Assembly (NCBI GenBank): GCA_012031335.1
Contig: JAAUTT010000209.1
Span: 1 to 7,291 of the forward strand
Direction: 5' to 3'
DNA from: Bacteroidales bacterium
Lineage (GTDB): Bacteria; Bacteroidota; Bacteroidia; Bacteroidales; JAAUTT01
DNA length: 7,291 nt
The notes below the pieces were generated by a model. That model searched no databases and was not told the DNA's origin. It saw nothing but the letters and a program-made list of their open reading frames with translations. Position 1 is the first letter of the stretch, and the number at the start of each line of letters is the position of its first letter. Shown piece after piece: positions 1 to 7,291 of this stretch. The position numbers and the translations under genes are program-made.

Positions 1-117
1 CGTTCGATTTGCCACAATGATAACCTTTATTCCCGTTTTGAATGAAAACTTTGCTCATTTCAAGTCCAAGACCCGAGCTTCCTCCTGTTATGAATACAGT
101 ATTGTTTTGATTTTCAT
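1..117 (-). CDS. Short-chain dehydrogenase/reductase (SDR), N-terminal part, cut by window edge
   Basis: Reading leftwards from the ATG at 115-117, the sequence encodes the start of a classical SDR oxidoreductase. A beta strand (NTVFITGG) leads into the glycine-rich dinucleotide loop TGGSSGLGLE, then a helix (MSKVFIQNGNK) and the next strand (KVII). The TGxxxGxG motif binds NAD(P)H in this family; the substrate cannot be told from the N-terminus. Two frame breaks are needed. The ATG is joined to the SDR frame only if the T4 run at 111-114 is really T5, and the KVII strand needs one base fewer at the T3 run 26-28. Both are homopolymers, so sequencing error is likely. The gene follows a Crp/Fnr-like regulator on the same strand, and its start codon lies between the arms of a perfect inverted repeat (95-146), which suggests local control. 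The catalytic YxxxK would lie outside the window. Confidence 0.8.
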
Positions 118-146
118 GACCAAAATATTAGTTAAACAATACTGTA
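95..146. promoter_or_regulatory. Perfect 13-bp inverted repeat around the SDR start codon
   Basis: The arms TACAGTATTGTTT (95-107) and AAACAATACTGTA (134-146) are exact reverse complements separated by 26 bp. The SDR start codon (115-117) lies in the spacer. As DNA it could be a split operator for the neighbouring Crp/Fnr-like regulator. As RNA it would form a 13-bp stem with the start codon in the loop. One arm is also coding sequence (the NNTVF stretch of the SDR). The symmetry is read directly from the sequence; the function is inferred. Confidence 0.5.
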
Positions 147-184
147 AAACTAGGCTGTCAATTCATAGTGTGCATTGATCTAAG

Positions 185-741
185 TCAAAAAACGATTCTT
201 TTTCGGATGCGGCTCAATGTTTCAGGCTGGATGCCTAAATAGGAAGCTATAATTCCCTGTTTAATTCTTTGTTCCATGCCGGGGAATTCTGTGAGAAAAT
301 TCCTATACCTCGTCTCTGCATCAAGTAGTAATAAGTCGCGCTCCCGTTTTTCTTTCGCAATGTATCCCCTTTCAAGAAATTTCATAAGAAACTGAACCCA
401 AAAAACATCATTTTCTTTTAACTGGTTGAAGTCTGCCCAGGTAATCTCCAGCAAATGTGAATTTTCTAAAGCTTCAATTGAAAAGTAGGAAGGTTTATTT
501 AATACCATGGCAGAATAAGAACTGATGAAAGTATTTTCTGTTATGATTGCTTTTGTAAATTCATCTCCTTTATCGTTGATATATACATAACGAAATAATC
601 CTTTAAAAACGAAAGCTATTTTTACCGGAGTTTCTCCAGCTTTAATAAAATAACCCGAAGTGAGGATTGATTTTCCTTTCCTATTGCAAGTAACTCGTCA
701 ATACGATTATCCGGCAATAAAATTTTTAGCTGCTCATTCAT
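185..741 (-). CDS. Crp/Fnr-family transcriptional regulator
   Basis: The corrected protein is 185 residues. Residues about 25-115 form the cyclic-nucleotide-binding-like beta barrel (GYFIKAGETPVKIAFVFKG, then RYVYINDKGDEFTKAI). A long dimerisation helix follows at about 125-150, and a C-terminal helix-turn-helix at about 160-182 ends in GIQPETLSRIRK. This is the short Bacteroidota Crp-like type, in which the effector is usually unknown and cAMP-binding residues are not conserved. The start is the ATG at 739-741. The frame breaks once, near 671-674: a T4 run that must be T5 to read GKEKSILTSGYF without interruption. The downstream two thirds, from the Met at 506-508, is open by itself. The next gene is an SDR enzyme 67 bp downstream, an arrangement typical of a regulator beside its target. 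DUF3052 ends 45 bp upstream on the same strand. Confidence 0.85.
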
Positions 742-786
742 TTTTATTTTGCTAATACATATTTACCCTCATTACCTTACCACCAT

Positions 787-1215
787 TTAGCGGTTTGTTG
801 TTCTCGATTTCAATTTGGCGTGACTGTTATTATACGTTTTCCCTTTTTTGGGATGGGTAAATTTCAATGCCGACCAAATTTCATTCACGCTCAAACAGGT
901 ACTCTCCACAAGTCCAAATTCATAACCTATCTTAATAACTTTTGGTAATGTAAGGTCTGTATTTAACTTACCACCCTTTGGCCACGAAACCCAGAGCATG
1001 CCATCTAATTGGAGGTGATCCTTTAATTTTGGAAACAGGCTTTCCTGTTCACTACTTTGTTTAACAAACAAATGAATATAATCGAATTCGCCGGTTAATT
1101 CTTCGCACAATTGAATGTTGGGAAGTTCTAACGATTTTATAGCTTCTTTTGGTGCATCCACAAAATACGTTTTAGCATTTTCTTTGATGCCCATTTTTTG
1201 TGATACGGTTTTCAT
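787..1215 (-). CDS. DUF3052 family protein
   Basis: An intact 142-residue frame. It matches the DUF3052 pattern: an N-terminal KMGIKENAK segment, a central FDYIHLFVKQ strand followed by a helical region with FPKLKDHLQLDG, the strand MLWVSWPKGG, then DLTLPKVIKIGYEFGLVES and a terminal NEIWSALKF. The hydrophobic strands and the glycine-rich WPK turn resemble a small Rossmann-like fold; no enzymatic activity is established for the family. I chose the ATG at 1213-1215, giving the usual length. The frame stays open upstream to about 1317, but that stretch enters the 100-bp repeat and has no family resemblance. The gene sits immediately downstream of repeat copy R1 and 45 bp upstream of the Crp-like regulator, with which it may be co-transcribed. 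Confidence 0.85.
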   Translation of the reverse strand: MKTVSQKMGIKENAKTYFVDAPKEAIKSLELPNIQLCEELTGEFDYIHLFVKQSSEQESLFPKLKDHLQLDGMLWVSWPKGGKLNTDLTLPKVIKIGYEFGLVESTCLSVNEIWSALKFTHPKKGKTYNNSHAKLKSRTTNR

Positions 1216-1301
1216 TTGTTTAAAAATATTAAAATTTACAGATAATGAGGCTTGTACATCATTCCTGAAATGTTGATGGAACATTGCTGATTGCAGGCAA
1301 T

Positions 1302-1401
1302 TTCCTGAAGACTGCAACCCTTGTACAACTTATGTACTTGAATTTTAATCCGCTTGTTGAACTAAAACCCAACAAACAGGACTGACTAATAAAACAAACA
1401 T
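1302..1401. repeat. 100-bp direct repeat, copy R1
   Basis: This block matches 2734-2833 without gaps at about 85 of 100 positions. The strongest conserved cores are CTGCAACCCTTGTACAACTT, GCTTGTTGAACTAAA and AAACAAACAT. It contains the palindrome TTGTACAA and an inverted repeat TTGTTG/CAACAA around 1354-1375. It lies between the PIN-gene remnant and the DUF3052 start. It is not coding: the frame open in R2 has stops here. Together with R2 it brackets a 1.3-kb accessory module. Confidence 0.85.
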
Positions 1402-1421
1402 TTATTCTTTTTGATCCGGAA

Positions 1422-1481
1422 ATTTATATGTGAATTCAGGCTAGGTTGTGCCGATTAGTTGAATTCATATTTATATGTGAA
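1422..1481. repeat. 13-bp direct repeat with nested TGAATTCA palindromes
   Basis: ATTTATATGTGAA occurs at 1422-1434 and again at 1469-1481. Two copies of the palindrome TGAATTCA lie at 1431-1438 and 1460-1467. The inner parts also form an imperfect inverted repeat. The block lies just downstream of the PIN remnant and may be a scar of the event that shortened it, or a small regulatory or terminator structure. The repeats are seen directly; the role is unknown. Confidence 0.6.
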
Positions 1482-1485
1482 GTAA

Positions 1486-1586
1486 TTATTTCTTTATCTT
1501 CCCTTTTGTTTCCCATAACTCAAAAAACTCATCGGTAGAAATGATATTGCACTGAAAACGATATTGGCATCAACGATTATTTTCAC
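1486..1586 (-). pseudogene. PIN-domain toxin (VapC-like), internally deleted remnant
   Basis: From the GTG at 1584-1586 the frame reads VKIIVDANIVFSAI. This is the start of a PIN ribonuclease, including the first metal-binding aspartate in the VDAN motif. After about 14 codons it jumps to another frame reading NIISTDEFFELWETKGKIKK and a stop at 1486-1488, which resembles a PIN-protein C-terminus (I-S-x-D-E-F-x-E-L). The two ends are present but the central ~90-100 residues, with the other acidic catalytic residues, are gone. Such toxins are normally 120-140 residues. A short near-repeat, AATATCGTTT / AATATCATTT, lies at the join and could have mediated the deletion. The start overlaps the stop of the upstream small gene (GTGA), the usual antitoxin-toxin coupling. 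It cannot encode an active nuclease. Confidence 0.7.
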
Positions 1587-1822
1587 TTAATAGACCTTTT
1601 GCGATTCTTAGACCACCATTTCTCATTAAGTTCATCAGCAAGTCTTTCAGCGTCTTCTTGGGTAGCTTTACTTTTTGAAGTTAATTCAAGATAATCAACT
1701 ATCAGCCGACGCAGATTATGTCCAAAACGGCTAGAAATAGGGTATACCAAGCATAAATTATTGGCATTACCGGCAGTTGATGAATTTAAATTTATTTTAT
1801 CATGTTGATGTGTCAGTTTCAT
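1583..1822 (-). CDS. Small antitoxin-like protein upstream of PIN remnant
   Basis: A 79-residue frame from the ATG at 1820-1822 (a TTG at 1832-1834 would add four residues). The second half is helical and charged: an RRLIVDYLEL helix, then ATQEDAERLADELNEKWWSK and a basic tail. I do not recognise the family with certainty. Position is the main evidence: the stop overlaps the GTG start of the PIN remnant by 4 bp, as antitoxin genes do with their toxins, and size and charge fit an antitoxin. The start overlaps the end of the DUF4272 gene by about 23 bp, so all three would share a transcript. The N-terminal 30 residues are unconvincing; given the error pattern in this sequence, the true start could lie in another frame. 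Confidence 0.5.
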   Translation of the reverse strand: MKLTHQHDKINLNSSTAGNANNLCLVYPISSRFGHNLRRLIVDYLELTSKSKATQEDAERLADELNEKWWSKNRKRSIK

Positions 1823-2469
1823 CCCATTCAGCAATATCCATGAACCTTCTTACCCAATTTAATGTCTGATGTCTCAAAAATGAGATATTACTGTCTATAT
1901 CAGATGTGTTGTTCTTTCCATTGAAGAGGAGGTCTCTAAAATAGGTTGTTGCCAGTTCATGAAATATGTTTTCATCATATATTTCTGCTGTATTTCGATA
2001 ACTTAATTTACTAAGAAAATCATCAAGTTTCTCACCAAGTGCAGGAATATTATTTATAAAAAATGTCAAATTGGTGCTCATTCACTGGTTCAATAGGAGA
2101 TGGTTTCTCTTTAATAATGCTTAAAGCCCAGGCAAGGATATATGCACATTCTCCTTGCCATGAAAAGTCAATTAATTGTTCTTTATCGTTTGCATTTCCA
2201 TCAAAAAATTCACGTTCTCTGGGCGAAACATGTTCCCATATCCCTTCTCTTATAAGCCAGTTTTTAATAGCTTCTCTATATTCAATATTTGTTGCTGTGA
2301 AGGCTACAGCATACAATATAATCATCCTGCAACCAACTTCGAAAGGTGTTGCAAAGGTTTTGTCGTCAAATTCTAAGTATGGCAAATAGTCCACACGATA
2401 ATCTTTAATACCATGTCTTGTTAACCTGTCTTCAAGTTGTTTTTTTCTATTCTTAAGGTTTGTTGTCAT
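1800..2469 (-). CDS. DUF4272 domain-containing protein
   Basis: The corrected protein is 222 residues, typical of DUF4272. The N-terminal part has RKKQLEDRL and a membrane-like but probably buried helix (MIILYAVAFTA). The hallmark segment is at about residues 70-120: an IKNWLIREGIWEHVSPRERE stretch, then FSWQGECAYILAWALSII. The C-terminal part has the family's closing pattern HQTLNWVRRFMD ... WDETDTST. No biochemical function is established for the family. The reading frame breaks once at the A6 run 2058-2063 (T6 on the coding strand); removing one base joins DIF to INNIPALGEK and restores one protein. The start is the ATG at 2467-2469; a short remnant frame upstream overlaps it by 17 bp. The gene lies inside the repeat-bounded module. 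Confidence 0.85.
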
Positions 2470-2608
2470 TGTCTTTTAGGCTTACTTTCAAAACTTTAAA
2501 ACCATCATTACCAAATCCCACCACGATCCAATACCTTCCAACCTCCAATTTTGGTATTCCGGCTTTTATAGATGTTGTAAGTGTTTTTAGAGATTAATAA
2601 TCAGTCAT
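2453..2608 (-). pseudogene. Short coding remnant upstream of DUF4272
   Basis: From the ATG at 2606-2608 the frame reads MTDY, then an in-frame TAA at codon 5, then about 46 codons ending at 2453-2455. The latter part looks protein-like (GIPKLEVGRYWIVVGF, then GFKVLKVSLKD) and overlaps the DUF4272 start by 17 bp, as a coupled upstream gene would. I cannot name a family. It may be the tail of a longer gene lost from the module, or a small gene broken by a sequence error. Confidence 0.35.
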
Positions 2609-2733
2609 AAAAGTGTGTTTGTTTGGTTATGTTTTTAAAATCGATTGGCAAATTACAAATTTTGCCATTTAGCAAGCAACCAGGGGTTGATTTTTACTGA
2701 AAGGATGAAGGAGGATTGCCTATTACTGTCTAA

Positions 2734-2833
2734 TTCCTGACAACTGCAACCCTTGTACAACTTTTGTACAGTCATTTTTACCCGCTTGTTGAACTAAATC
2801 CCAACCTACAAGACTGATTTATAAAACAAACAT
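2734..2833. repeat. 100-bp direct repeat, copy R2
   Basis: The second copy of the block at 1302-1401, same orientation and same length. Differences cluster around 2764-2773 and 2804-2825. It lies between the stop of the 142-residue membrane protein and the DUF4272 module. The preceding stretch 2609-2733 has no gene, only a small hairpin GGCAAA/TTTGCC at 2647-2666. On the minus strand this copy is open for about 31 codons, but the frame is closed in R1, so I do not call it coding. Confidence 0.85.
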
Positions 2834-2874
2834 CCACCAGGAAAAAAGGCAGGTTTCGCCAATCTGGTATACTC

Positions 2875-3303
2875 CTAATGATTGATGGCAGTTCCTTTTA
2901 TTAATCTTTCTTTTGAACTTAATTCATCCATCAAAACATAAAGAATTGCGTTAAATAAAAATAATAAAAGTGATCCAGCAAAGAAGTATTCCTTAGGAAT
3001 CCAGCTTGACGCACCCCAGGAATGTGCAATTAATACAAACAGCAAAAAAATCCTTGAAATCCTATTAGGTAGGTAATAACCTAAAATTAAAATCAATACT
3101 ATCCAAATTCCGGAAATAATAAAAATCCCAGTGATATGATTTGTCATGAAGAATGATCCTATTGGATTTCTTTCATTGGCAATATTTAAATTTCCCTTCC
3201 AATATCCGGCAGGTTGTCCTGAAATTGTAATACAAATATCCAGTAAACTTGCCCAGAGTGCTGGAATAATTGGCAAAAATCCTGATCTTTCAATTTTTCC
3301 CAT
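2875..3303 (-). CDS. Integral membrane protein of unknown function
   Basis: An intact 142-residue frame from the ATG at 3301-3303. After a short N-terminus come a hydrophobic stretch near residues 9-29 (FLPIIPALWASLLDICITIS) and a polar loop with GQPAGYWKGN and ERNPIGSFF. Three clear transmembrane helices follow, at about 57-77 (ITGIFIISGIWIVLILIL), 82-100 (ISRIFLLFVLIAHSWGAS) and 106-127 (FFAGSLLLFLFNAILYVLM), then a basic tail. The D..ISGQP..YW segment, the NPIG turn and the HSWGASSW motif look like conserved family features, perhaps on one face of the membrane, but I cannot assign a function. It is downstream of other small membrane genes on the same strand and upstream of repeat R2. Confidence 0.75.
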   Translation of the reverse strand: MGKIERSGFLPIIPALWASLLDICITISGQPAGYWKGNLNIANERNPIGSFFMTNHITGIFIISGIWIVLILILGYYLPNRISRIFLLFVLIAHSWGASSWIPKEYFFAGSLLLFLFNAILYVLMDELSSKERLIKGTAINH

Positions 3304-3399
3304 CTCTTTTTAATGTTATTTGGTTAATGGTCGGTGTATCTGCTTTTGAAGCAATGATCTTTAAAAGCAGGGATTGCGCCCGAATGAATTTATTGGGTG

Positions 3400-3818
3400 C
3401 TATTTATTGTCTATTTTTAATTCATCATTATTCCATTTTCTTTTATGAAAATAAAATGTTGAAGGATTATATTTAATCTCCTTCTCATTTTTATCATTAC
3501 CAACAATGAAAAGACTTATGCTTCCGTCATTTTTATAAATGCTATCTCCAAATTCAGCAGAATCAAAGATCGGATTCCAAAATGAGTCATACAATACAGT
3601 CTGCATCGAATCATGACCCATAATAATCACAGATTTTGTTGCATGATTTTTTCATCTGTAATCTTGTCGGTGAAATGTCCCTGGAATGTCATAGGTAAAA
3701 TATATTCAATCATTTCGTCTTCAGCAGAATTGACTTTAACAAAGACAAAGAAAAAAATAATTAATATCACTACTACGGGAAAAATACCAAAATATAATAA
3801 TTTATTATCCGCTTTCAT
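3400..3818 (-). CDS. Membrane-anchored protein of unknown function
   Basis: The corrected protein is 139 residues. Residues about 8-28 form a single N-terminal transmembrane anchor (LLYFGIFPVVVILIIFFFVF). The rest is a soluble, beta-rich domain probably facing outwards, with FQGHFTDKITDEK, SVIIMGHDSMQTVLYD, FGDSIYKNDGSISLFI and a C-terminal YFHKRKW. This pattern recalls small Bacteroidota cell-surface proteins of unknown role. The frame breaks once at the T6 run 3647-3652 (A6 on the coding strand); adding one base gives DEKNHATKSVIIMGHD and joins the two halves. The start is the ATG at 3816-3818. It probably belongs with the neighbouring small membrane genes, though 151 bp separates it from the upstream one. 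Confidence 0.65.
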
Positions 3819-3969
3819 TCGTTTGTTGATGTTAAATAAAATTGTTAATGGATGATGCCGCTTGCAGACAGTATAATGTAAATTGCCTTACTGAACTGGA
3901 ATTTTTAACAAGAATAAAAGCATGTTCTGCTGTCTAACTGAAATCATACTAATTATATCCGGTAAACCT

Positions 3970-4146
3970 TTATATATTAATCATAATCAACACACCCAAA
4001 AACAAAATTCCTAAATAAATCAAAGTAAATGCTTTGTCTATTTTATCTACTTTTCTTTTTATACAATTATCATAATCACCCACTTCAGAAAATTTACTCC
4101 ACTAAATGGGTTCTCTTTTATAAATTAGAAAATAAGCGCTCCGCAT
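3970..4146 (-). CDS. Small single-pass membrane protein, interrupted frame
   Basis: The ATG (4144-4146) overlaps the stop of the upstream membrane gene (TAATG), a strong sign of coupled translation. The frame begins MRSAYFLIYKREPI and then meets a TAG at codon 15. The same frame resumes with DYDNCIKRKVDKIDK and a C-terminal transmembrane helix (FTLIYLGILFLGVLIMI), stopping at 3970-3972. Two compensating one-base changes, in the T3 and A3 runs near the TAG, would instead give EPISGVKFSEVGDYDN with no stop, consistent with the error pattern elsewhere. Length would be 58 residues. Function unknown; the charged segment followed by a tail helix suggests a tail-anchored topology. Confidence 0.5.
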
Positions 4147-4463
4147 TAAAATGAAGTAACCAAAATGATACTTAAAACCATTCCATTACTGATTGAAAAT
4201 AATCTTTTGGTTATAATTACTTTATCTGTATAATAAATCAACCATACGATAAAAGTCCATATGGCAATATTCGAAATTTTGGAGAAATCAATATATACAA
4301 CTTTATGAATGTTAATTGGATATAAAAACCGAAACGCAAGAAGTCCCGTAATAAAAAATACCAGATTTCTCATTAATTCCGAATTCAAATTAACATATGA
4401 ATTCAGAATTAAAAGTACCACAACCAGTGAGTTTATTAATTCGGTTTTATCGGGTAATCTCAT
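4146..4463 (-). CDS. Small multi-pass membrane protein of unknown function
   Basis: An intact 105-residue frame from the ATG at 4461-4463. Three or four hydrophobic segments are visible: about residues 10-25 (INSLVVVLLILNSYV), 32-50 (RNLVFFITGLLAFRFLYP), 64-81 (ISNIAIWTFIVWLIYYTD) and a C-terminal stretch near 89-103. No catalytic or binding motif can be seen. Its stop overlaps the start of the next small membrane gene by one base, so the two are very probably translated together and may form a complex. Upstream is the GC-richer non-coding block, which could contain its promoter. Confidence 0.6.
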   Translation of the reverse strand: MRLPDKTELINSLVVVLLILNSYVNLNSELMRNLVFFITGLLAFRFLYPINIHKVVYIDFSKISNIAIWTFIVWLIYYTDKVIITKRLFSISNGMVLSIILVTSF

Positions 4464-4910
4464 TTATTTTATTGATTAATACGATTATCACAATGGCCAT
4501 TAAGGAATTGCGAGCTGCATCTATATCCCACATTAAAAAAAGCTGATGCAGGAGATGAACTTTGCGAACCAGTGACACCCCAAGACTTCGATGATTGAAC
4601 TTTCGAGGCTCAATCACAAGGCTTTTACAACCGCTGTCTAAGCTTCGTGCCATCATCTCTGATGACTTCGCAAGACTCGCTTCTGGTGGATGGCTAGTCC
4701 TTGCCAGGCAGGATTGGACCTGCCAGGTTACTAAAAGGTGTTTCAACTTTAATCCCCACCATATGGGCTTTTCACGACGCAATGAAGCACTTTCCTGTCA
4801 TGTTACAAGTACTTTTGATAAGGGTTGAAACGTTCGATAACCCATTAACTGCCAAATGTTTTATATACGATGTTACACGTTGGCGTTCTTTCTGTTTTCT
4901 TGTCATACCG
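4464..4910. other. Structured, GC-richer stretch without a convincing gene
   Basis: Between the WG-repeat gene and the small membrane genes lie about 450 bp with no recognisable protein. From about 4530 to 4800 the GC content is clearly higher than on either side. Hairpins are visible: GATTGA/TCAATC at 4593-4615, TCATC-TCT-GATGA at 4653-4665, and GGCAGG-ATTGGA-CCTGCC at 4707-4724 with two further CC/GG pairs outside. Nearer the WG gene are GGGTT/AACCC at 4822-4843 and GCCAA/TTGGC at 4851-4884. Long open frames exist on both strands here, but they read as low-information, Ser/Arg-rich sequence. It could be an interspersed repeat, a structured RNA, or the remnant of a mobile element. Confidence 0.5.
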
Positions 4911-5605
4911 TTAATGTTTTTCGCCCTTTTCATTAATAATTATTTTTTCGTTTTCAAATGTTGTCACCAAAGCAAAACCGTTATAAAATGGTTCAATTGA
5001 CAGGTAACGATTTTTATAAAGTTCATTTCCTTGTTTGTCAATGTGAAACCAACCGTCTTTGTCTTTGGCTGTCGCAAAGTTTTTATGAAAATCCTAAATC
5101 TATAAATGATTTGCCGTTGATGAGCTTTCCCTTGTTGTCAATGTGTCGGTATAAACCGTCTTGCGATTTTACGCAAGCAATTCCGTCTTTGTAGTCGCCT
5201 GCGTAAGCATAGTTGTTTGCATAAAATACAGTTTCCGTTCAAGTCAATGTGAAAATATAAGTTGTCTGCGTTTCTAACAGTGCAAATATTTTCTTGATAG
5301 TTTCCTGTCCATAAGTATTTGGAAGAATAAACTCTTTTGCCGTTTTCATTGATATGAAACCAAAAGTTATTTTCAATAACAGAAGCCCTATTGCAATAGA
5401 ACCCAAAAGACCGTGTGAACCTGTCTGCGTATAGTTGTATGCCTGAACTGTCAATGTGATATGAGCCACTTTCGTCCTCTACTGGTGCAATACCTGGCGA
5501 ATGAAATTTAAACACTTCTAAAAACTGTCTGCCGAAAATTTGTCTTCCCTCAAATAGAAAATGAGTGTTGTCTGCTGAAACTTTTATTTCTTGCCAATTC
5601 ATCAT
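4911..5605 (-). CDS. WG-repeat protein (third gene of the coupled unit)
   Basis: The corrected protein is 230 residues and consists almost wholly of WG-like repeats of about 34-35 residues. The motif [F/Y/R]HI[D/N]xxG recurs with its His at about positions 50, 84, 119, 154 and 187, and a degenerate sixth unit (IINEKG) closes the protein. Conserved aromatic and glycine positions between motifs (GNYQENICTV, GDYKDGIACV, EPFYNGFALV) mark each unit. Such repeats form beta structures thought to mediate binding. There is no signal peptide, so it is probably cytoplasmic. The ATG at 5603-5605, or the next one, overlaps the phosphatase stop (ATGA). Two breaks need correction: the T3 run 5232-5234, and a one-base excess at the TTTT run near 5088-5091. 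Both restore the repeat pattern. Confidence 0.8.
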
Positions 5606-7024
5606 TTCAATAGTTTCTGTTTGAGTTGTGATATTTGTTTTTCACTTAATCCGCATGAAAGCAAATAGTTTTCAATTCCGTTTTCATGTTTGATTATTTC
5701 AAGAGTTATGTTCAAGTATTCTTTTTTTGTATCGGTTTCAGTTGCTAAATAATCATTGTAAACTGTTTCCAACTCTGCTCCTGAAAGCAAGTGAAGCATA
5801 GAAATAAAAATCCCTGTTCTGTCTTTTCCTGCATAGCAATGAATGGCAATAGAATTTTTGCTCTTGCAAAATTGCTTCAACTGCTTTCTTAATTGAGTGC
5901 TTGCATTCAATAGAAAAAAAGCGATATGCAATTTCCATATTTGAGCCTTGATGATGGGTTGCCTGAAATTCTATTGATTGACTCCAAGGGTCAAAAGGAG
6001 TATGAACCCAGATGAAATTCTTTAAACTATTTTCTGTGTAGTTGCTTTCAGCAACTTCTTTTTCTGCTCTTAAATCAATTACCGTTTTGATTTTCTTTTC
6101 GCTGATAAATTCTTCAAAAAGTTTCATTCTGAATCAAAGTCATTGTAGCCGTTCGGTAAATCAAACCGCTTTTGATTTTAGGATTGTGCAAACTGATGTC
6201 ACGAAAGTTCCAAAGAAAATCTCTATTGTAAATTGTTTCGCAAAACAGTTTAAGTTCTGTCAGCTTTTCAGTTGTTACTAAACTTTGAACTGACGAATAA
6301 AAGAAGCCAAGGAGTTTTCTTTTCTGTTCGTTTGCTTCTGGCAGAAACAAACTGCCTCTTAAACTGTAAAAATCCTTTTGCTCTGCTTTAGTCAATACGT
6401 TAGCAATAAAATTCTTTGGAAGAAAGTTGAATTTGGTTTGTCCTTTAGCAAGGTGGTTTAATTGAATGGCAACTTGCAAAGCAATGTTGTAAAAAAATAA
6501 AAATGGTAGCCGTCACTTCTGCGATGAGAGTTGGAACAACTCTCATACTCATAAAGAAACTTGTTTATCAAGTTTAAAGTTTCGGCTTCTTTGTTTATTT
6601 TCTTTTACACTTTCCTGTACTTCTTTGATTGCTTGAAAATGTTGCAAAGCATTTTCTGTTCTGTCAAACAAAATGCTTGCTGAAATTTTATCTAAAGGAA
6701 TTTCAGAGCCTAAATAATTTCTGTCATGCTCTGATATGTTTTGGTGAAAAGCAATTTCTGCTTTGGGCTGTTTATTGAAGTAAAGCACAATTTTATTTCT
6801 CAATCTACCCTCAATGCTTTTCAGCAACCTTGTTGAAAAATGTTTTGAATTACTGATAGTAACTGCTCAACTTCAAAATCTTTATTTACAACTGTTGCAA
6901 TATCAATGTCTGAATTTACGGTTGGGTTTTGCCTTGCAAACGAACCATAGAGAAACGCTGTTTCAATTTGCTTGTTTTCTAAAAGCAACAGCCTCAACTC
7001 GTTTATAATTTTCAGTTGTTCCAT
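5602..7024 (-). CDS. Nucleotidyltransferase-tyrosine phosphatase fusion protein
   Basis: The corrected frame gives 473 residues. Residues 1-95 are a polymerase-beta-type nucleotidyltransferase: GSFARQ (27-32) followed by NSDIDIA with Asp39 and Asp41 as metal ligands, and perhaps Glu90 as the third. Residues about 110-270 are helical, resembling the accessory domain of such enzymes. Residues 273-473 are a dual-specificity/tyrosine phosphatase of the NFRD type: NFRDIS (273-278), SGLIYRTATM, IKTVIDLRAEKEV, and the P-loop HCYAGKDRTG with Cys396 and Arg402. The frame breaks at five places, all by one base: A5 6836-6840, T3 6590-6592, A7 6491-6497, A5 6116-6120, A7 5914-5920. With these changed, no stop interrupts and no good internal start separates the domains. 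The start overlaps the SPASM gene by 13 bp; the stop overlaps the WG gene. Confidence 0.8.
6524..6546. repeat. 10-bp stem, 3-nt loop hairpin inside the fusion gene
   Basis: ATGAGAGTTG (6524-6533) and CAACTCTCAT (6537-6546) are perfect reverse complements around a GAA loop. On the minus strand it encodes the YESCSNSH region of the fusion protein's helical middle. A stem this strong inside coding sequence could affect elongation or transcript stability, or may be chance. It is seen directly; a function is not shown. Confidence 0.55.
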
Positions 7025-7291
7025 ATTGGTTTCCTCATGTTACAAGTTTTACAAAGTGGTTTTGTTTTGTAGTTGTTTACAAGTTCAGTGTAAACCGAAC
7101 TTTGTAAAACATCTTCAATTGTTGTCGTTGAAATGTTTCCAAAATCACCTAACGATTTTCGCAAATTGTCGGGAGCACAACATGGTGAAATATTCCCTGT
7201 TGCAGAAATCCAAAGTTCTTTATTGAGAAACGGACATTCATATTCTTCGGGAAGTTCTTTGGTTTCGTTATTGAGAAGCGGAATGATGTTT
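7012..7291 (-). CDS. Radical-SAM-type enzyme, C-terminal SPASM domain, cut by window edge
   Basis: The last 92 residues of a protein whose start lies beyond the window. They carry a SPASM-type iron-sulfur domain: Cys19 in ECPFLNKELWISATGNISP, the pair Cys37-Cys38 in SPCCAPD, a GDFGNIST segment, a helix (TIEDVLQSSVYTELVN) and the closing PLCKTCNMRKP with Cys80 and Cys83. This C...GxxxPCC...G[D/N]...CxxC layout binds auxiliary [4Fe-4S] clusters in radical-SAM enzymes that modify peptides or proteins; the radical-SAM CxxxCxxC core would be upstream and is not seen. The frame is intact. The stop (7012-7014) lies 13 bp inside the nucleotidyltransferase-phosphatase gene, so the two are co-transcribed and probably translationally coupled. 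Confidence 0.8.
   Translation of the reverse strand, partial: NIIPLLNNETKELPEEYECPFLNKELWISATGNISPCCAPDNLRKSLGDFGNISTTTIEDVLQSSVYTELVNNYKTKPLCKTCNMRKPIWNN

Follow-up and report, generated by a model that had tools for sequence, protein, structure and literature searches.

Among described systems, the mycothiol-type pathways come close to the locus considered here, namely three genes at one end of a 7,291-nucleotide stretch from a Bacteroidales bacterium (contig JAAUTT010000209.1, positions 1 to 7,291; "the window" below means this whole stretch), which encode the end of a SPASM-domain radical S-adenosylmethionine (radical-SAM) enzyme, a nucleotidyltransferase (NT) fused to a tyrosine phosphatase (PTP), hereafter NT-PTP, and a WG-repeat protein. 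In mycothiol synthesis MshA, a glycosyltransferase (GT) of family 4 (GT4), reportedly glycosylates a phosphorylated acceptor and a phosphatase acts next. The cassette to which the three genes belong in relatives likewise combines a GT4 with a separate phosphatase step, whereas it adds the radical-SAM enzyme, the WG protein and optional transfer of a nucleoside monophosphate (NMP), methyl or carbamoyl group, and no deacetylase or ligase family was seen in it. The lincosamide and aminoglycoside nucleotidyltransferases LinB and ANT share with the cassette the two-domain fold of the whole NT half and its aligned motif residues; unlike them, the cassette enzyme is fused to a phosphatase, lies in a multi-enzyme cassette and scores far under the NCBIfam cut-offs, and it is not taken for drug resistance. 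MptpB-like tyrosine phosphatases (PF13350) differ in that here they form the C-terminal half of the fusion, with histidine phosphatases instead in other cassettes.

Two further comparisons concern the regulator and the radical chemistry. RtcR and RtcR-like activators, of CARF, AAA+ and helix-turn-helix architecture, have in common with the cassette regulators a sigma54 activation domain, a sensor half to which the latter are weakly similar, and divergent control of an operon, whereas here the regulator stands beside a GT/radical-SAM cassette; the relevant part of PMC4012209 mentions restriction-modification neighbours and not this cassette. Gene clusters of Bacteroidales for ribosomally synthesised and post-translationally modified peptides also place a radical-SAM enzyme near a glycosyltransferase in Bacteroidota, but those described in parts of PMC10352776 have precursor peptides and transporters, and its main text has 0 occurrences of the words "phosphatase" and "WG repeat".

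We propose, tentatively and at somewhat less than even confidence, that the trio makes up the downstream half of a conserved enzyme cassette under regulation, which would make and decorate a sugar-bearing small molecule, by the mechanism given in the last section.

Composition and distribution of the cassette

Scanning genomes with two short peptide patterns yielded 21 NT-PTP loci, two of which (L004 and L005) are one contig. By tblastn 20 of the 21 have the SPASM end immediately upstream and 19 have a WG gene downstream; L020 has neither neighbour and L021 stops at a contig edge. The adjacency of NT-PTP to SPASM and WG is far above chance, and the refuting case of rare adjacency named with the original prediction did not arise. 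The linked system supposed in the original prediction exists, with the trio forming part of a larger conserved cassette, which in relatives comprises usually a divergent regulator, often a small gene, a GT4 with radical-SAM/SPASM, a phosphatase and WG, plus, in some loci, an optional insert before WG that encodes either an O-methyltransferase (PF00891) or a NodU-type carbamoyltransferase (PF02543/PF16861). It is noted that Algoriphagus has, outside any cassette, a relative of NT-PTP that contains the PTP but not the NT catalytic part (L020:9968-10978).

The final table holds 37 cassette loci, which are partly non-independent, L089-L091 being close relatives and likewise L010, L012 and L015. 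WG is found in 35 of them, the two others ending at contig edges, and GT or radical-SAM is recognised by hidden Markov model (HMM) in 36, with a SPASM piece found by tblastn in the remaining one (L013). As judged from these sequences, the near-invariant set is glycosyltransferase, radical-SAM enzyme, phosphatase and WG, with the nucleotidyltransferase exchangeable; the gene set and its linkage, the mutual exclusion of the phosphatases, the catalytic motifs, the predicted folds and the types of regulator are all read from sequence comparison. The cassette is almost certainly a real functional unit. In agreement with the view that the set may be undescribed, no description of it was found in the open-licence PubMed Central (PMC) literature, subscription papers and most preprints lying outside the search. 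Note also that a ParE-type toxin gene (PF05016, 8e-12) is located on the other strand close to the GT-radical-SAM gene in one locus (L039:12948-13280).

The phosphatase is the component that is exchanged. Among the 37 loci, 26 have (NT-)PTP (PTP without the NT half in L043), 10 a histidine phosphatase, one neither and none both, where "not both" applies to the fetched stretches rather than to entire genomes; every mapped locus lacking NT-PTP has a histidine phosphatase except L093. In the 20 GT-radical-SAM genomes of one order the corresponding numbers are 9, 10, 1 and 0, and NT-PTP is not a fixed part of the set, being replaced by an unrelated enzyme in half of them. The histidine phosphatases match PF00300 in all eight cases tested (3.3e-10 to 1.6e-17), those of L090 and L091 being recognised only by an HMM built for this analysis, and they occupy the NT-PTP slot in L083-L087 or, as another type, follow WG in L088-L092. 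Since the same need is met by two phosphatases that are unrelated to each other, the pathway probably cannot do without a dephosphorylation step. The NT, the methyltransferase and the carbamoyltransferase, whose presence varies between cassettes, look like tailoring enzymes.

At E ≤ 1e-40 NT-PTP is rare, with matches in 1 of 395 genomes (phylum sample), 2 of 398 (genus) and 10 of 396 (order), counts that include the already known centre genome (one match each) and, in the order search, also the known G011; the searches scored the best few first-look candidates per genome, so that misses are possible. The GT-radical-SAM profile matches 20 of 396 genomes of one order, and the WG profile 34 of 396 genomes of the same order at 1e-20, of which 21 match at 1e-70 or better. 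Outside the 20 GT-radical-SAM genomes there are two WG orthologues at 1e-70, one (G904, L013/L037) with NT-PTP beside it and cut by a contig edge, the other (G842, L094) without other cassette genes. The cassette is compact, strongly conserved and sporadic across one bacterial phylum.

The encoded proteins

The SPASM domain in the window is the last 92 residues of a gene open at the window edge (45.5 bits against a cut-off of 21.5), and this end is 88.6% identical over 88 residues to the end of a 786-residue protein of L002. In L004 the upstream protein matches PF00534 (2.1e-29, GT4), PF04055 (2.1e-17, radical-SAM) and PF13186 (1.8e-10, SPASM). The radical-SAM enzyme that the original prediction supposed is present, with the CxxxCxxC core in the upstream protein in 20 of 20 loci tested (the window itself holds the C-terminus only), but in most loci it is a GT-radical-SAM fusion and not a stand-alone gene; where complete, the fused gene encodes 763-804 residues, and GT and radical-SAM are separate frames in L019, L021, L040-L043 and L088-L092. 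Across 10 sequences of the enzyme, five Cys are invariant in the short SPASM region at the C-terminal end, a number that suffices for one cluster. According to part of PMC10352776, two auxiliary clusters are bound by 7 or 8 Cys, and with five conserved Cys one auxiliary cluster is likelier than the several that had been predicted. The Grasp-with-spasm model TIGR04193 is missed by the window fragment (22.4 versus 175 bits).

In the window the NT piece matches Polbeta (PF18765) and NTP_transf_2 (PF01909) in Pfam, and the PTP half matches Y_phosphatase3 at 7.2e-19. Intact relatives (up to 90% identity) are common, and 637 relatives in all pass E 1e-3 among 7995 candidates scored. The NT half of one intact relative (P0001) has a predicted LinB-like fold (VIA match to LinB, model residues 1-268), and the PTP half has the predicted fold of MptpB. 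The GSxxR-DxD motif and the two-domain fold of Lnu/ANT nucleotidyltransferases are present in the NT half, where the GS motif, the first Asp of DxD and a downstream Glu align with LinB, whose second carboxylate is Glu. The HCX5R loop of the PTP is found in 20 of 20 loci, and PF13350 scores 105.8 bits against 22.2 in L004. An NMP-transferring type of domain and a tyrosine phosphatase are indeed encoded in one gene. The window piece misses the curated cut-offs for ANT(9) (20.8 bits versus 340) and Lnu(H) (20.8 versus 540), and the full-length L004 protein gave no ANT or Lnu model of NCBIfam at E ≤ 0.1. Judged by the predicted fold, the target would be hydroxyls of small molecules sooner than protein. 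As a separate candidate, the type VII MntA antitoxin was rejected, with scores for NF047752 of 34.6 bits (window piece) and 24.6 (L004) against a cut-off of 60.

The WG protein is likely a binding propeller, as its classification as a binding-type repeat protein had implied: the L004 relative has a predicted beta-propeller (pLDDT, the model's own confidence score, 95.9) and matches WG_beta_rep (PF14903) with 47.3 bits against a cut-off of 25.6, which the window piece reaches exactly (1.3e-5). Intact relatives in cassettes have 231-251 residues, and tblastn with the L007 protein gave 68%, 64% and 77% identity in three successive window frames.

These proteins bear on the reading in which SPASM, GT and the decorating enzymes modify a peptide or protein, either the product of the small upstream gene or the WG protein. 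In the PDB the radical-SAM part (L040 copy) has a single sequence relative at E ≤ 0.01, namely 5v1q, "Radical SAM", at E 1.2e-5, which we take to be the peptide-modifying enzyme SuiB, and WG is the sole non-enzyme that is nearly always present. SPASM enzymes are mostly peptide modifiers, as parts of PMC10352776 also indicate. A small gene before the GT is recognised by HMM in 19 of the 31 loci with that side available; none is so recognised in the other 12, of which three (L019, L043 and L092) have other short frames, and a universal gene for a small precursor peptide, which had been suggested as a thing to look for, was not found. By eye, moreover, the small-gene families are conserved along their whole length rather than in a leader with a variable core, the surroundings of the cassette show no recurrent protease or exporter, and the predicted fold of the NT is one of enzymes that transfer groups to hydroxyls of small molecules. 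This reading, which the original prediction had adopted, is possible but not favoured, and we consider it rather unlikely. It is also noted that in L016 a 73-residue frame (7035-7253) between regulator and GT resembles plant seed maturation (SMP) proteins by eye, and has a relative in L017.

The trio as deposited in the window

All three genes are on the minus strand, and the end-to-end overlaps given in the original prediction are exact by coordinates, with Pfam supporting the domain calls: the SPASM frame (7290..7012) has its stop within the NT-PTP gene, whose ATG is at 7024 (overlap of 13 bp, 7012-7024), and the NT-PTP frame ends at 5602 while the WG ATG is at 5605 (overlap of 4 bp). As deposited, NT-PTP and WG are recognisable yet broken, every piece matching intact relatives. 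NT-PTP consists of six pieces with five frame changes (order -1, -3, -1, -3, -1, -2) and WG of three pieces with two (order -1, -2, -3), as derived from the coordinates, which gives seven frame changes in total. Since the CRP-like regulator gene and the short-chain dehydrogenase/reductase fragment at the window edge (1-750) also change frame by eye, general insertion or deletion errors in the record are suggested more than decay.

Table 1. Coordinates of the trio and its parts in the window
Feature	Position	Strand	Evidence
C-terminal end of GT4-radical-SAM/SPASM gene; remainder outside window	7012..7290	-	PF13186 E 9.5e-12
NT-PTP gene, five frame changes	5602..7024	-	joined pieces 90% identical to P0001
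Nucleotidyltransferase catalytic part, GS...NSDIDI	6821..7024	-	PF18765 6e-11, PF01909 3.2e-7
Remaining NT half, with the helical domain and the second half of the catalytic one; limits approximate	6250..6866	-	pieces matched to P0001
Tyrosine-phosphatase half, HCYAGKDRTG active-site loop, upper limit approximate	5602..6260	-	
WG-repeat gene, three frames	4911..5605	-	tblastn with L007 WG; PF14903 at cut-off

Elsewhere in the window, a Group II intron match (RF02005, 83.9 bits versus a cut-off of 49) lies just downstream of WG on the minus strand (4576-4717), and the list of open reading frames of the window contains no long frame of reverse-transcriptase size for it. A direct repeat of 140 nt, 80% identical, occurs at 1262-1401 and 2694-2833 (spacing 1432 bp), flanked on both sides by minus-strand frames.

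Regulation and a candidate pathway

A regulator adjoins 27 of the 37 cassettes and, in part, L003 as well, and six further cassettes end too near a contig edge. The long regulators (584-623 residues) have the sigma54 activator domain PF00158 in all seven scanned, while short forms vary; the other regulators lack the front half, and most of these also lack the GAFTGA loop. We call an activator full if it is of the long form or has a GAFTGA-like loop, and degenerate otherwise. Of the loci with a full activator, 8 of 9 have a GGCAYR box ahead of the first gene, versus 0 of 10 with a degenerate one; when 27 loci are taken with longer gaps including small genes, the numbers are 14 of 16 versus 3 of 11 (Fisher p 0.003). 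The distances vary, and in L093 more than 1.7 kb separate the boxes from the GT. If the T that stands before the box in the -24 consensus is demanded too, a condition set post hoc on the same data, the numbers become 14 of 16 versus 0 of 11. The degenerate regulators of L007, L010, L011, L012 and L038 have, close to their start, palindromes of the TTGGCAAATATTTGCCAA type, which are a possible operator, and L089 contains a second, short regulator-like gene within the cassette (6861-7763).

The weak RtcR similarity in six of the seven long regulators would fit a modification or repair of tRNA or other RNA induced by broken RNA, with CARF sensing RNA ends and the enzymes acting on RNA. Weak TsaD matches in three of four carbamoyltransferases scanned would fit it too, and RNA-acting members exist among the pol-beta nucleotidyltransferases, the Cys phosphatases, the GT4 enzymes and the radical-SAM enzymes. 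This explanation seems improbable.

An anti-phage or stress defence carried in defence islands, with a toxic or protective product, would agree with RtcR-like activators unlinked to Rtc often standing beside restriction-modification genes (in part of PMC4012209) and with the sporadic spread given above. L012 lies between a type I HsdR and Gabija, McrC (PF10117) adjoins L016 and an McrC relative L017, and in five further loci 4 of the 10 nearest neighbours match PADLOC at 1e-6 (one in L084, two in L086, one in L091), a count made with broad models and without control for defence-gene density. The other 6 have no PADLOC match, and housekeeping or unrelated neighbours occur (FtsH, a tricorn-like protease, an ice-binding protein, an aminotransferase). 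Moreover, none of six cassette proteins is a strong match to a PADLOC system, the best being 2e-10 for GT-radical-SAM (pVip) and 3.7e-6 for NT-PTP (PDC-S09), with none at 0.1 for the other four. Defence is regarded as unlikely.

We prefer the inducible glycoside pathway on the basis of the phosphatase exchange, the mycothiol-like GT4/phosphatase logic and the hydroxyl targets of the NT and carbamoyltransferase, families that elsewhere act on hydroxyls of sugar-bearing small molecules. What we infer in this pathway is the sequence of its reactions, the phosphate on the acceptor, the part played by WG and the signal for induction. A signal would act on the divergently encoded sigma54-type activator, often with an RtcR/CARF-like sensor half, which would turn the operon on. 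The GT4 would then transfer a sugar from a nucleotide sugar to a phosphorylated acceptor, and the fused or adjacent radical-SAM/SPASM enzyme would oxidise, epimerise or cross-link the glycosylated intermediate. Subsequently, the phosphate would be removed by one dedicated phosphatase, of Cys type or His type. O-methylation or O-carbamoylation may follow in some lineages, and in that of the window the lincosamide-nucleotidyltransferase-like domain could place an NMP on a hydroxyl. Finally, the product or its target would be bound by the WG propeller.

Several points weigh against this pathway. Gene maps and clustering show unrelated flanks, with no other gene family in more than three loci around the cassette, and clustering of the mapped loci showed no recurrent scaffold-building enzyme or exporter around it; the substrate must therefore be common in the cell, and RNA or protein is equally possible. 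The same lack of recurring families, together with a regulator of stress type, makes the tailoring of a surface polysaccharide or glycolipid very improbable, although GT4, carbamoyltransferase and methyltransferase decorate glycans elsewhere. The acceptor type of the GT4 is assumed by analogy with other pathways, L093 has no nearby phosphatase, and the 5v1q match concerns a presumed peptide modifier. As to regulation, L039, L086 and L088 have the flank available but no adjoining regulator, the similarity to RtcR/CARF (PF06956) has a best E of 0.0048 and 16.8 bits, below the cut-off of 23.1, the GAFTGA-like loop is absent by pattern in 12 of 19 regulators, GGCAYR is present by chance in 24% of random sequences of matching lengths, and the sigma54 site has a weak -12 half.

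A more far-reaching version of the glycoside pathway, which we regard as quite unlikely, is that a CARF-like/sigma54 switch senses RNA breakage or a phage-linked nucleotide and induces a phosphate-capped, radical-SAM-modified glycoside, which the phosphatase would uncap, NMP, methyl or carbamoyl groups would tune or mask, and WG would receive, as a home-made drug-like answer to infection or RNA damage.

The fixed core with exchangeable enzymes, and in particular the two exclusive and unrelated phosphatases, would mean that, in addition to glycosylation and radical chemistry, one dephosphorylation is required. If the CARF-like regulator does sense broken RNA, RNA damage would be tied to the synthesis of a small molecule in these bacteria.
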